A stretch of DNA of 64,000 nt from Methanocellales archaeon (GTDB taxonomy: Archaea > Halobacteriota > UBA148 > JAUWXC01), in NCBI GenBank assembly GCA_030018435.1, contig JASEEY010000002.1, forward strand, positions 1 through 64,000. The letters are read 5' to 3'. The notes under the pieces are model-generated. The model was not told the DNA's origin and ran no database searches. It saw only the letters and a program-made list of their open reading frames with translations. Positions 11,145 to 47,857 of this stretch are shown here, piece by piece. Position numbers and translations under genes: made by a program. Numbering within the stretch: position 1 is the first letter of the stretch; each line of letters begins with the position of its first letter.

Positions 11145-11498
11145 CTATTGAATTATCCTAACCCCTTTACCAGAGGGTTTTTTCTCTATCAACTCTTCGA
11201 TTAAAGTGCATTCCCCCTTGGCGGACGTGATTTTATCGTTTGCGGAAGGGGTGAAACTGAGCGCTGCTACAGTAACTGGATGATCTAGAGCGCCTGCACC
11301 AAGTACCTTGCCTGGCACAAGCACGGTCTCATTTTTACTTGTATGCCGATTGATCTTGCTGATATTCACCTCTGCATAGCGGCGTGTAGGTCGCTCTAAT
11401 CTTTCGGCAACGCTCCGCCAGATCGATACATTTTCCTCCCTAGACCTGGCTTTGAGCGTTTCTATCAGTTTTGTCAGTCTTGGATTCGTTTTTGCCAT
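11145..11498 (-). CDS. rpl18e: Large-subunit ribosomal protein eL18
   Basis: 117 aa; NPRLTKLIETLKARSREEN and VLVPGKVLGAGALDHPVTVAAL match archaeal eL18. Here tRNA-Leu lies between rpoD and this gene, as in many euryarchaea. Confidence 0.96.
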   Translation of the reverse strand: MAKTNPRLTKLIETLKARSREENVSIWRSVAERLERPTRRYAEVNISKINRHTSKNETVLVPGKVLGAGALDHPVTVAALSFTPSANDKITSAKGECTLIEELIEKKPSGKGVRIIQ

Positions 11499-11522: not shown

Positions 11523-11652
11523 TGCGGGGGAAGGGATTTGAACCCTCGAACCCCTACGGGACAAGGCCCTCAACCTTGCGCCTTTAGCCAACCTTTTTGC
11601 AAGCAAAAAGCTTGACCAAAAAGGGTTATTGGCCAGACTTGGCAACCCCCGC
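11523..11652 (-). tRNA. tRNA-Leu (GAG) with a D-loop intron
   Basis: The 130-nt gene has acceptor GCGGGGG pairing with CCCCCGC, discriminator A, anticodon arm CAAGG-TTGAGGG-CCTTG (anticodon GAG), a long variable arm and T-arm GAGGG-TTCAAAT-CCCTT. The D-arm is interrupted: GCCAAGTCTGGCCAA is followed by 45 extra nucleotides before AGGC. Removing positions 11584-11628 restores a standard 85-nt class II tRNA-Leu. The gene is within the rpoD-eL18 operon. Confidence 0.93.
11584..11628 (-). other. 45-nt intron in the D-loop of tRNA-Leu
   Basis: The intron begins TAACCC and ends GGCTAA. A bulge-helix-bulge can be drawn: exon GGCC pairs with intron GGCU, with 3-nt bulges AAU (5' site) and AAA (3' site); cutting after the second base of each bulge gives exactly this intron. 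Inside it, AACC plus TTTTTG pairs with CAAAAAGGTT (one bulged C), topped by a CAAGC/GCTTG hairpin. Confidence 0.85.
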
Positions 11653-11653
11653 T

Positions 11654-12436
11654 TTATGTTACCCCACTTAAACTTTTTGTCAACGCCTTAGCTTTTTTCT
11701 TGATCTCATCAGCAGCCCTTAGGACCATCTCCATACACGGCATCGACCCATCTGCCTCGACGGAAAACACAAATGAGGCGGGGTCTGCGCTGATTTTTAT
11801 CGCCCCCGACTCACATGCTTTCTCGCAAAGGTGGCACAGTGAGCATTTTATCTCATCTTTGACCACCACTGTTTCATTTAGCTTTAATATGTTCTTGGGG
11901 CAAACATCCACACATGCGCCGCATCTGTCACACCCTGAAATGACGATTTTTGGCAAGTTTTTGTAGCCGCAGGCGACTGCTGGTTGCCATTTTGCATGAT
12001 CCTTGCCCTTGCCCAATCTGGCTATCGCCTCTAATACCAGTTTTTGATCCTTTTTAAGCTTGACGATGGGAATGTCCGTTTCTGTGGGAACGACCTTTGG
12101 ATCGCTGGACTGCAGATCACCCGAGTAAACCGTTTTCGGTCCTTCAACGCTGAGCGTTAGGGATACCTGACATCTTGGGCATCCATCCTCGCACTTGCAC
12201 TCAGAGCGAAGTACATATAAATCCAAATCCGTCCTCAGAGGTATCAGTCCAAGACGCAGGGCAAGTACTTCATCGTACAACACGGATGTGTTCTCGTATA
12301 TGTTAACATCATCTATCGCCAGGGATGGCACCTCAGCCATCATGCTACGCCTCAGGGCATTTGCAAAAGCTGAAGAGACACCAGACAACACAAATTGCGC
12401 TCTCGATTCGGACAATTCGATTACATCGACGTTCAT
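11654..12436 (-). CDS. rpoD: RNA polymerase subunit D (Rpb3/alpha homologue) with Fe-S domain
   Basis: 260 aa. The alpha-like N-terminal part contains SSAFANALRRSMMAEVPSLAIDDV. Residues of about 165-215 carry two ferredoxin-like ligand sets, CDRCGACVDVCP and CSLCHLCEKAC, so both 4Fe-4S sites look intact; in archaea this domain affects D-L assembly (family knowledge). It ends 2 nt before tRNA-Leu and starts right after uS11. Confidence 0.96.
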   Translation of the reverse strand: MNVDVIELSESRAQFVLSGVSSAFANALRRSMMAEVPSLAIDDVNIYENTSVLYDEVLALRLGLIPLRTDLDLYVLRSECKCEDGCPRCQVSLTLSVEGPKTVYSGDLQSSDPKVVPTETDIPIVKLKKDQKLVLEAIARLGKGKDHAKWQPAVACGYKNLPKIVISGCDRCGACVDVCPKNILKLNETVVVKDEIKCSLCHLCEKACESGAIKISADPASFVFSVEADGSMPCMEMVLRAADEIKKKAKALTKSLSGVT

Positions 12437-13897: not shown

Positions 13898-13994
13898 CGC
13901 CGAGGAAGGGATTTGAACCCTTGCAGTGCAAATGCACAACAGGCTCTCTGAATCAATTCCAGGCCTGCGCCATACCGGGCTAGGCGACCTCGGC
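13898..13994 (-). tRNA. tRNA-Ser (GGA) with an 11-nt intron
   Basis: The 97-nt gene has acceptor GCCGAGG/CCTCGGC, discriminator G as usual for Ser, anticodon stem CAGGC/GCCTG, a class II variable arm with GTGC-ATTT-GCAC, and T-arm AAGGG-TTCAAAT-CCCTT. The anticodon loop has 18 bases; removing 13946-13956 leaves CTGGAAA with anticodon GGA. It lies between truB and uS13, which is the usual euryarchaeal position of this tRNA. Confidence 0.93.
13946..13956 (-). other. 11-nt intron at position 37/38 of tRNA-Ser(GGA)
   Basis: Sequence TTGATTCAGAG. The bulge-helix-bulge is clean: exon CTGG (32-35) pairs with intron TCAG (one G-U), bulges AAU and AGA, with cuts after the second base of each. The intron is so short that nearly all of it is used for the splice motif. 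Confidence 0.85.
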
Positions 13995-29759: not shown

Positions 29760-30572
29760 TTATCTAACTAAGTTTAATATCGATAGGGTTGCAAATACCG
29801 CCTCTTCTGTTCTAACGGTGGCGGTTCCCTGATTTGGTATAGTGTTGATGACGTAGTCTGCAAGGTCGGAAAGCGTGCAGCCCTCCTCGTGCAGGATATC
29901 CCCTATACCCCTTGTGGGAGAACCAAACACAACTGAGACGCTCTCTTTCATCGCTTTCTGCAATTGAGCGAGTAATCGCTCATCTACAATGCTACCCTTT
30001 CTTGATGTTGCAATTACCAGTGGTTGCGCTTTGAGCGTCTCGCCCAGCGTTCCTGAGATTTCGGTTTGATATCCCCAGTACTGGGGGATTTGACGTCTAT
30101 CCCACAGCTCAGCTTGCAGGGGTCTTCGCGAAAAGATCCTGACGGTCACACGCTCTCCCTTGCGCACTGTTCTGTCAGCACGCAACGGAACTGGGCCTTC
30201 TGTGCCGATATCGACCCAAGCGCCTTCGTCAGATCCGACCACGACTCCTTCTCGATATTCTCCTACTTCAGGAGATGAACGCGATGGATGATGGGGTGTC
30301 CGTAGCGGCGGGATCACTCCCACATACTTAAGCTCGTCCATCAAAGGGAAGAGGTGTTTTCTCAGATATTGCGGCGTTTCCGCGTATCTGAGCACCAGGT
30401 CGATGAATTTGCTGTCATCGTATTCTGGATCTTTGTATACGATGATTCTGTCCACCCTGAAAATGGACGCCGCCCTGGCGATTTGTCCCACCTTGTATGT
30501 CTTGATTCGCTGGTCCTTGCTCTCAGACGTCAAGGACGATGGTATTATTATCGACAGATCACCGCTGCGCAT
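29760..30572 (-). CDS. SPOUT-family RNA methyltransferase (COG2106, SPOUT1/C9orf114-like)
   Basis: 270 aa; the family has an alpha/beta-knot SPOUT domain interrupted by an OB-like insert. [20 protein letters not shown] and the knot segment [15 protein letters not shown] with [19 protein letters not shown] (cofactor loop) are visible. The eukaryotic relative methylates rRNA; archaeal substrates are uncertain. It is first in the uL3 operon, a conserved place, suggesting rRNA modification linked to ribosome synthesis. SD AGGAGG lies 9 nt before the ATG and a TATA box follows at 30601-30612. Confidence 0.87.
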
Positions 30573-32689: not shown

Positions 32690-34140
32690 CACCCCTTCAC
32701 AACACCCATCGGGACGAGTTTGGCAACCGTCTTGCTGATGCCCGCCACTTCGCACACGCGCACGACTTCATGAATGTCTTTATACACGCCCGGCGCCTCT
32801 TCCGCTAAGACCTTCCAGCTTGCTGAGCGTGCGAATATGCCCTTGCTTGCCAGGTTTGCCTTTACCCTCTCACCCCTGAATTGTTTCAGGGCAGCATGCC
32901 TGGACATGATTCGCCCTGCGCCATGGCAGACCGAGCTAAAAGTTTCTTCTTCAGCCATTTTTGTTCCCACCAAAACGTAGCTGGCAGATCCCATGTCCCC
33001 TGGAACGAGCACAGGCTGACCGACATCGCGATAATCTCTTGGTATATCACTCGCTCCGGGACCCAGACACCGGGTTCCACCCTTGCGGTGCACGAAAACC
33101 CTCGCCCTCTTCCCATCTATCTCATGCTCCTCTAATTTGCCGATGTTGTGCGCAACGTCGTAGACAACATCAAGACCAAGCTCGTCCTGCGACATGCCCA
33201 GAATCTTGGTAATGCTCTCTCTCACCCAGTGGGTTATCATCTGTCTATTGCACCACGCGAAATTGGCGGCGCAGGACATGGCAGCGAAGTAATCCTCGCA
33301 CTCCTTCGTTCCCGCCGGTGCATAGACCAATTCACGGTCAGGCAACTTTGCCACCTCTGCTCTAAACACGGTCTCGAGAATTCGCAGATAATCCGTACAC
33401 ACTTGGTGTCCAAAACCCCTGGAGCCGGTGTGAATCATGACACAGACCTGCCCTTCACGTGCTATGCCAAACGTTTTTGCAATATCCGGTAGGTAGATTT
33501 TGTCCACCTTCTGAATCTCCAGAAAGTGATTTCCTGCGCCCAAAGACCCCAATTGCGGAGCACCCCTTTGTTTTGCCTTCAGCGAAACCTTTGCTGAATT
33601 GGCAGATTTCATGCACCCCTTTTCTTCTAGGTGCTCGAGGTCTTTTTCAATTCCATAGCCGTTTTTCACGCCCCATTCTGCCCCCATCTCGAGAACTTCG
33701 TCAAGTTGCTGCGGAGATAACCTGATCTTTCCACCCTTGCCGACACCAGAGGGAACGTTCTGGAATATCTCCGTCACAAGTCCTTCTAAATGCGGTTTGA
33801 CATCCTCCGTGCTCAGATTCGTCCTCAACAGGCGAACGCCACAGTTGATGTCAAAACCTATCCCTCCTGGAGAGAGGCCGCCCGTTTCAGAATCCAGGGC
33901 GGCAACGCCACCGATTGGAAAGCCGTAGCCAAAATGCATATCCGGTAATGCGATGGAATGTTTGTAAATTCCCGGCAGGCAGGCGACGTTTGCAGCCTGC
34001 GTTATAGCACTCTCCTCAACCTGCTTCAGCAAGGTCTCTGACAAGAATATCCATGTCGGGACGTGCATTCCTTCAACAGCGCCCTTGGGTAACTCCCACA
34101 GGCATTCGTTGAGTTTTTTTAATTTCTCCTTCAATGTCAT
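32689..34140 (-). CDS. rtcB: tRNA-splicing ligase RtcB
   Basis: Joins 2',3'-cyclic phosphate and 5'-OH RNA ends with GTP and Mn, the ligase of archaeal tRNA splicing. Metal and GTP segments are intact: GGIGFDINCGVRLL, GAGNHFLEIQ, MIHTGSRGFGHQ, VVYDVAHNIGK, and the guanylated His in VFVHRKGGTRCLGPGA. Length 483 aa is normal, without intein. It begins 14 nt after the 3' end of an intron-containing tRNA-Ser on the same strand, with GGAG four bases from the ATG, so its mRNA probably starts as tRNA processing product. Confidence 0.96.
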   Translation of the reverse strand: MTLKEKLKKLNECLWELPKGAVEGMHVPTWIFLSETLLKQVEESAITQAANVACLPGIYKHSIALPDMHFGYGFPIGGVAALDSETGGLSPGGIGFDINCGVRLLRTNLSTEDVKPHLEGLVTEIFQNVPSGVGKGGKIRLSPQQLDEVLEMGAEWGVKNGYGIEKDLEHLEEKGCMKSANSAKVSLKAKQRGAPQLGSLGAGNHFLEIQKVDKIYLPDIAKTFGIAREGQVCVMIHTGSRGFGHQVCTDYLRILETVFRAEVAKLPDRELVYAPAGTKECEDYFAAMSCAANFAWCNRQMITHWVRESITKILGMSQDELGLDVVYDVAHNIGKLEEHEIDGKRARVFVHRKGGTRCLGPGASDIPRDYRDVGQPVLVPGDMGSASYVLVGTKMAEEETFSSVCHGAGRIMSRHAALKQFRGERVKANLASKGIFARSASWKVLAEEAPGVYKDIHEVVRVCEVAGISKTVAKLVPMGVVKG

Positions 34141-34154
34141 TTACTCCTTTTTTA

Positions 34155-34320
34155 CGCCGAGGAAGGGATTTGAACCCTTGCGTTCCAGAGGAACACCGGT
34201 TGTCTTTCAAGGAGAAACTACGTTTCTCCCTTGACCCTCTTATTTTTCCGTTAACGCTTTTGCACGAAGTGGAAAAGGGTTATTCAAGACCGGCGCCTTA
34301 GTCCACTTGGCTACCTCGGC
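34155..34320 (-). tRNA. tRNA-Ser (TGA) with an 81-nt intron
   Basis: The 166-nt gene has acceptor GCCGAGG/CCTCGGC, discriminator G, D-arm GCCAAGTGGACTAAGGC, anticodon stem CCGGT/ACCGG, variable arm GTTCC-TCT-GGAAC and T-arm AAGGG-TTCAAAT-CCCTT. Removing 34202-34282 leaves anticodon loop CTTGAAA, anticodon TGA. It shares acceptor and T-arm with tRNA-Ser(GGA). It is transcribed toward rtcB. Confidence 0.92.
34202..34282 (-). other. 81-nt intron at position 37/38 of tRNA-Ser(TGA)
   Basis: It begins TAACCCTTTT and ends AAAGAC. The central splice helix pairs CTT (32-34) with AAG and is relaxed at the fourth pair. Two hairpins fill the intron: one pairing ACCCT and TTTTCC with GGAAAA and AGGGT, and a strong one with arms GGAGAAAC/GTTTCTCC closed by TCAA/TTGA. 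No protein is encoded. Confidence 0.78.
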
Positions 34321-47738: not shown

Positions 47739-47857
47739 CGGGCTCGAAGGGATTTGAACCCTTGGCCACCTGGTCTCTTTCCACAACTTACAGAAACGAC
47801 CTTCCTTTAAAAAGTTGGTTAAAAGCCAGGTGCTCTGCCTAACTGAGCTACGAGCCC
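47739..47857 (-). tRNA. tRNA-Lys (TTT) with a 45-nt intron
   Basis: 119-nt gene: acceptor GGGCTCG/CGAGCCC, discriminator G, D-arm GCTC-AGTTAGGCA-GAGC, anticodon stem CCTGG/CCAGG, T-arm AAGGG-TTCAAAT-CCCTT. Removing 47775-47819 leaves loop CTTTTAA with anticodon TTT. It leads the rpoH-rpoB-rpoA operon, so intron processing and polymerase mRNA may share one precursor. Confidence 0.94.
47775..47819 (-). other. 45-nt intron at position 37/38 of tRNA-Lys
   Basis: Canonical bulge-helix-bulge: exon CTTT (32-35) pairs perfectly with intron AAAG, bulges are TAA and AGA, and cuts after the second base fit position 37/38. The intron begins ACCAACTT, which pairs with AAGTTGTGG near its end (two-base bulge). 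Confidence 0.88.

Follow-up and report, generated by a model that had tools for sequence, protein, structure and literature searches.

Can a leucine tRNA gene that is interrupted within its D-arm be a working gene in a euryarchaeon and, if so, which enzyme would remove the insertion and how was the insertion acquired? The question is raised by a tRNA-Leu(GAG) gene in a 64,000-nt stretch of DNA (the window) from a Methanocellales-like genome. In the accepted picture, non-canonical tRNA introns are tied to heteromeric or epsilon endonucleases with an extra loop, and alpha'2 enzymes are confined to the canonical motif. An order with D-loop-interrupted leucine tRNAs and an ordinary alpha'2 EndA contradicts this picture and provides a clean test of it.

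The interrupted tRNA-Leu(GAG) gene and its precursor fold

The tRNA-Leu(GAG) gene was located between rpoD and rpl18e, inside a ribosomal-protein operon (Table 1). A 45-nt insertion splitting the D-arm had been proposed in the first-pass annotation, and its sequence, borders and strand were all reproduced here. Once exactly these 45 nt were removed, ARAGORN called the 85-nt product as tRNA-Leu(gag), in line with the proposal that a standard tRNA-Leu is restored. The gene had also been expected to escape simple gene finders; in its unspliced form it received no ARAGORN call in the window, and its match to Rfam RF00005 was below the cut-off. In the sequence alone, the splice borders could be shifted by one or two bases with an identical product, because A residues are repeated at the junctions. 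This ambiguity of up to two A residues was settled by the bulge rule, in which the cut follows the second bulge base (AA^U and AA^A), giving position 21/22, between A21 and A22.

Table 1. Coordinates of the tRNA-Leu(GAG) gene, its precursor elements and neighbors, the putative ligase gene, and other intron-bearing tRNA genes of the same genome (window positions unless a contig is given).
Feature	Position	Strand	Remarks
tRNA-Leu(GAG) pre-tRNA with D-loop intron	11523-11652	(-)	130 nt
Exon 1	11629-11652	(-)	24 nt; 3' end ...GGCCAA (position 21); GCGGGGGTTGCCAAGTCTGGCCAA
Intron	11584-11628	(-)	45 nt; position 21/22; near-palindromic hairpin; TAACCCTTTTTGGTCAAGCTTTTTGCTTGCAAAAAGGTTGGCTAA
Exon 2	11523-11583	(-)	61 nt; 5' end AGGC (position 22); discriminator A included; AGGCGCAAGGTTGAGGGCCTTGTCCCGTAGGGGTTCGAGGGTTCAAATCCCTTCCCCCGCA
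Central helix, exon strand	11631-11634	(-)	GGCC
Central helix, intron strand	11586-11589	(-)	GGCU
5' bulge	11628-11630	(-)	AA^U
3' bulge	11583-11585	(-)	AA^A; within 6 x 3 internal loop
rpl18e, downstream neighbor	11145-11498	(-)	Identity from ORF sequence and gene order
rpoD (RNA polymerase subunit D), upstream neighbor	11654-12436	(-)	Identity from ORF sequence and gene order
rtcB, probable tRNA-exon ligase	32692-33999	(-)	PF01139, E = 2e-172
tRNA-Ser(GGA)	13898-13994	(-)	11-nt intron, consistent with 37/38
tRNA-Ser(UGA)	34155-34320	(-)	81-nt intron, consistent with 37/38
tRNA-Lys(UUU)	47739-47857	(-)	45-nt intron, consistent with 37/38
tRNA-Ile(GAU)	L185 from 1501 = G000:C1 from 25711	(+)	Two introns: 17 nt at 23/24 in D-stem, long at 37/38
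tRNA-Ala(GGC)	L029 1501-1628 = G000:C1:25462-25589	(-)	Introns at 37/38 and 45/46

The bulge-helix-bulge described in the first-pass annotation was present in the predicted precursor: exon GGCC (positions 18-20a) pairs at 4/4 positions with GGCU near the 3' end of the intron, so that a 4-bp helix stands between two 3-nt junctions, AAU and AAA, each cut after its second base. Strict bulge-helix-bulge defines the canonical subtype and not the kind of intron. The strict form (hBHBh', with adjacent outer and inner helices) was not found in the window gene, the outer helix being missing. The D-stem closes a 6 x 3 internal loop in which the 3' junction lies, and the motif is therefore of the relaxed kind. 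Only two base pairs (C-G and U-G) could flank this junction in the window gene, and they were absent in variants with A at 17a.

The intron folded as a compact hairpin. The unconstrained minimum fold of the precursor (-60.3 kcal/mol) lacked the motif, as an alternative of equal stability is open to the palindromic intron; the fold with cloverleaf and motif reached -60.0 kcal/mol, and the central helix formed unforced once the tRNA stems were imposed. Constrained-fold energies were relied on for the window genome only, since those of some relatives fell below the unconstrained minimum, an artefact of forcing imperfect stems.

Introns in leucine and other tRNAs of the order

The order was sampled with 11 Methanocellales-like genomes, including the window genome (G000; assembly of 1.02 Mb, 95% complete), Met33H and Met12 (G003 is taken as Met33H and G004 as Met12). 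When 60 relatives were searched for the 130-nt gene at the DNA level, matches over its full length occurred inside the order only. Introns at exactly the same site were found in 34 tRNA-Leu genes, covering five isoacceptors and 11/11 genomes, as read with a script that looked for set exon forms and could miss differing forms of tRNA-Leu. In every intron-bearing tRNA-Leu, exon 1 ended with GGYYAA, exon 2 began with AGGC, and the mature length was 85 nt. The introns ranged from 28 to 241 nt and were highly variable in content; the splice sites and the 4-bp central helix were kept. All five leucine anticodons were interrupted in G005 and G007, and the only intronless gene among the tRNA-Leu genes read in the order was that for tRNA-Leu(UAG) in the window genome, the corresponding site being filled in G003.

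Removal of the homologous introns gave a standard tRNA-Leu in 34/34 cases, which chance would not produce, and ARAGORN assigned the expected anticodon to 35/35 spliced forms from the 11 genomes. It recognized 0/34 unspliced forms in standard mode and returned mostly wrong calls or none in intron mode. In practice, leucine tRNAs of this order are overlooked by simple annotation.

The central helix was paired at 4/4 positions in 31 of the 34 introns and at 3/4 in the other 3, with several base combinations. Over 28 distinct rows, 98% of the central-helix cells and 99% of all helix cells were paired, the latter value falling to at most 52% when the helices were slid by one column. The covariation statistic was modest, as 29 of 500 shuffles reached the observed score. 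A compensatory change was seen in tRNA-Leu(CAA) orthologues of G002 and G003, whose 56-nt introns were identical except at the 3' end: the helix was GGCC/GGCU in G002 and GGUC/GACC in G003. As far as can be judged from sequence, the 45-nt intron of the window gene is real and very probably functional, and of the relaxed bulge-helix-bulge kind.

The slot between rpoD and rpl18e contained an intron-bearing tRNA-Leu gene in six genomes of the order. In family f4, the same slot, with both flanks conserved, held an 85-nt gene without an intron. Two further outgroups in which rpoD adjoined tRNA-Leu also had no intron, and the leucine tRNAs read in other outgroup genomes were intronless too. The simplest reading is that the order's ancestor gained the intron once and that it spread over the leucine isoacceptors, with repeated replacement of its content and at least one loss thereafter.

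Interrupted tRNAs were not confined to leucine. The tRNA census of the window genome, made with a T-loop pattern and targeted stretches by which a few tRNAs (e.g., tRNA-His) may be missing, gave about 44 genes, 28 of them interrupted, with 30 introns. Anticodons were set by hand, and most introns fitted 37/38, where automatically placed borders are ambiguous by a few bases. Six introns were off 37/38: those of four leucine tRNAs at 21/22, one at 23/24 of tRNA-Ile(GAU), and one at 45/46 of tRNA-Ala(GGC). Read by eye, the 23/24 intron had a GUUG/CAAU central helix with bulges GA^U and AU^G, and the 45/46 intron a perfect GUAG/CUAC central helix. The spliced forms were recognized as Ile(gat), tested on the sequence of G001, and Ala(ggc). 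The 23/24 intron was kept in much of the order and was also found in family f4 (L188).

Splicing endonuclease and proposed removal of the leucine intron

Genes for both an endonuclease and a ligase, EndA and RtcB, were identified in the genome. The sole PF01974 gene encoded a 382-aa EndA with two PF01974 domains, in which the active-site Tyr, His, and Lys were kept in the C-terminal half only. Its best structural relative by sequence was the EndA of Archaeoglobus fulgidus (E = 6e-39), and it matched the Methanocellales MAGs CSMAG_2674 and CSMAG_2511 and the Methanosarcinales Met33H. A single two-domain EndA gene was found in all members of the order and in most members of the phylum searched; no heteromeric or three-unit composition, (alpha beta)2 or epsilon2, was encountered. 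The 9-residue crenarchaeal loop (the A. pernix insert) was absent in the five EndA sequences of the order that were aligned, the loop was short in three more sequences, and no CSL or ASL loop was found near the active site. The first-pass annotation had called for a check for a broad-specificity endonuclease; none was found, the only candidate being this tandem two-domain, alpha'2-type enzyme.

According to reviews, alpha4 and alpha'2 EndA cut only canonical motifs and euryarchaeal tRNAs hold single canonical introns, the sole alpha2 exception being Korarchaeum with its loop-bearing enzyme (PMC4033280, PMC4090602, PMC6379350). tRNAs with more than one intron are on record for Methanopyrus and Methanothermobacter (PMC4033280), and some euryarchaeal non-canonical introns were included in the training of tRNAscan-SE 2.0 (PMC8450103). 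Further, an intron with a bulge-helix-loop at 37/38 is excised from full-length pre-tRNA by the alpha'2 EndA of A. fulgidus (PMC6379350, citing Tocchini-Valentini 2005). In view of this tolerance and of these exceptions, the rule is broken here, but with some precedent. The coexistence of a loop-less alpha'2 EndA with about 30 introns, six of them off 37/38, is at odds with the narrow-specificity rule.

The introns share their cut rule, short length, position off 37/38, and possible occurrence of several per tRNA with the non-canonical bulge-helix-bulge introns of Thermoproteota, which occupy positions such as 20/21, 22/23, and 25/26 (PMC4090602). They differ in belonging to a euryarchaeal order with an alpha'2 EndA lacking the CSL loop, in their 21/22 position, and in affecting all leucine isoacceptors. 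Korarchaeum cryptofilum, in 2014 the only archaeon with an alpha2 EndA and non-canonical tRNA introns (PMC4033280), likewise combines a homodimeric EndA with such introns, but its enzyme has a specific loop that is missing in the present one. The A. fulgidus EndA (1R0V, 2GJW) has the same tandem two-domain architecture; it is rated as narrow, whereas the present enzyme would serve about 30 introns, with six at unusual positions.

In all likelihood, the insertion is a functional archaeal bulge-helix-bulge intron at the non-canonical position 21/22, presumably cut out by EndA, with the exons joined by RtcB. Pairing of exon GGCC with intron GGCU would leave AA^U and AA^A at the junctions, homodimeric EndA would cut at both, RtcB would ligate the exons, and the 45-nt hairpin would be released, perhaps as a circle. 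A different nuclease might be invoked, since the alpha'2-type EndA lacks the loop tied to broad specificity and alpha'2 enzymes are described as narrow (PMC6379350) or limited to canonical motifs (PMC4033280), so that the relaxed motif would be beyond its reach. This is improbable, as the borders obeyed the EndA bulge rule in 34/34 introns and the A. fulgidus alpha'2 enzyme itself tolerates a bulge-helix-loop at 37/38 (PMC6379350).

It is still less probable that the insertion disabled this copy, with tRNA-Leu(GAG) supplied by another gene. The D-arm is interrupted, the unspliced sequence is unrecognized by tRNA finders, and in an assembly about 95% complete another GAG copy could be missing; however, no second intact tRNA-Leu(GAG) gene, for which the first-pass annotation had advised a check, was found in the genome by the T-loop pattern and targeted reading. 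Moreover, the exons are intact, the interrupted orthologue is kept in the ribosomal-protein operon across the order, and in several genomes this one site is interrupted in all five leucine isoacceptors, so that leucine decoding would be lost if these genes were pseudogenes. That the mature tRNA keeps the insertion, its D-loop being extended by a hairpin, would suit the compact fold but is hardly credible, because orthologous and paralogous insertions differ in length (28-241 nt) and have only the junctions conserved, and removal always yields an ordinary 85-nt tRNA-Leu.

No paper on an order-wide leucine D-loop intron was found in the open-access literature, most subscription journals lying outside it. 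The closed Met12 genome (1,067,436 bp), from serpentinised springs, was described in a paper that mentions neither tRNA nor introns (PMC11176372). On the sequence evidence, the novelty lies in the setting: a leucine D-loop intron throughout the order, with relaxed motifs, an unexpected endonuclease class, and an intron family occurring in both orientations.

Relatedness and orientation of the intron sequences

The window intron was similar to two 37/38 introns of other isotypes, both in the opposite orientation: that of tRNA-Glu(UUC) in Met12 (G004; local score, 74) and that of tRNA-Ser(UGA) in G003 (70), the highest shuffled local score being 26. Near-identical introns were thus found across isotypes and positions (Leu 21/22, Glu 37/38, and Ser 37/38). 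Among cross-isotype intron pairs in G000, 74 of 311 scored above every one of 325 shuffled comparisons, in which two-base blocks were kept. The Leu(CAG) and Leu(UAA) introns of G000 were opposite in orientation to its GAG intron, whereas their orthologues, Leu(CAG) of G001 and Leu(UAA) of G003, had the same orientation as the GAG intron. Such a flip needs an event at the DNA level, for example recombination between the CCTTTTT/AAAAAGG arms or two-way insertion. Of 392 genomes searched in the phylum, 47 had a 23-base core at up to three mismatches, most of them genomes of the order or of one other family, f8. In the latter, a one-mismatch (22/23) version was dispersed as a repeat, a genome having as many as 26 matches, in mostly intergenic-looking settings.

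These resemblances could also have arisen if an old inherited intron had diversified in place, with short A/T-rich palindromes converging and nothing having moved. The same site is occupied in five isoacceptors across the order, and the introns are short and of low complexity, as this would predict. We consider it rather unlikely in view of the excess of high-scoring cross-isotype pairs, the orthologous introns that differ in hairpin orientation (Leu-CAG of G000 vs. G001; Leu-UAA of G000 vs. G003), and the 22/23 match, present in multiple copies in a different family. The site may itself be ancient even if its intron content was exchanged later.

With lower confidence than for splicing, members of the intron family appear to move from one tRNA gene or position to another at the level of DNA, as short palindromic elements in either orientation, and short palindromic repeats may feed the intron pool. 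We suggest tentatively that the tRNA introns of the order could be copied from a short, palindromic, mobile stretch of DNA that inserts either way round into tRNA genes and between genes, and that a loop-less alpha'2 EndA with a widened range might render insertions at 21/22, 23/24, and 45/46 harmless. The occurrence of almost the same intron at several positions and in several tRNAs, compared here as static sequences, recalls the transposing introns of Thermoproteales, but the present introns belong to another phylum, occur in both orientations, and have their close match in a dispersed repeat of a different family. Introns in both orientations that are related to a dispersed repeat would point to a DNA-level route of archaeal tRNA intron gain.

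The sequence AAACCTTTTTGCAAGCAAAAAGCTTTACCAAAAA is the dispersed repeat of family f8 (L133-L160), close to the intron hairpin. In the Met12-like G004, palindromic repeat arrays at L164 and L165 (CAGGTTGATCATTTGACC...) share words with the tRNA introns of the same genome, and the L165 array stands beside tRNA genes. A viral origin of the hairpin was considered and set aside, as no exact match was found in viral contigs. The sequence AAGGTTGATCA was not adopted as a general marker for a second family of introns: there were matches outside tRNA genes, several of them apparently in protein genes, and it was used only where located inside a tRNA.

In addition, a match to the L4-Archaeoglobi ribosomal leader (RF03135) above the gathering score was detected at 30139-30232 (-) of the window, in this Methanocellales-like genome.
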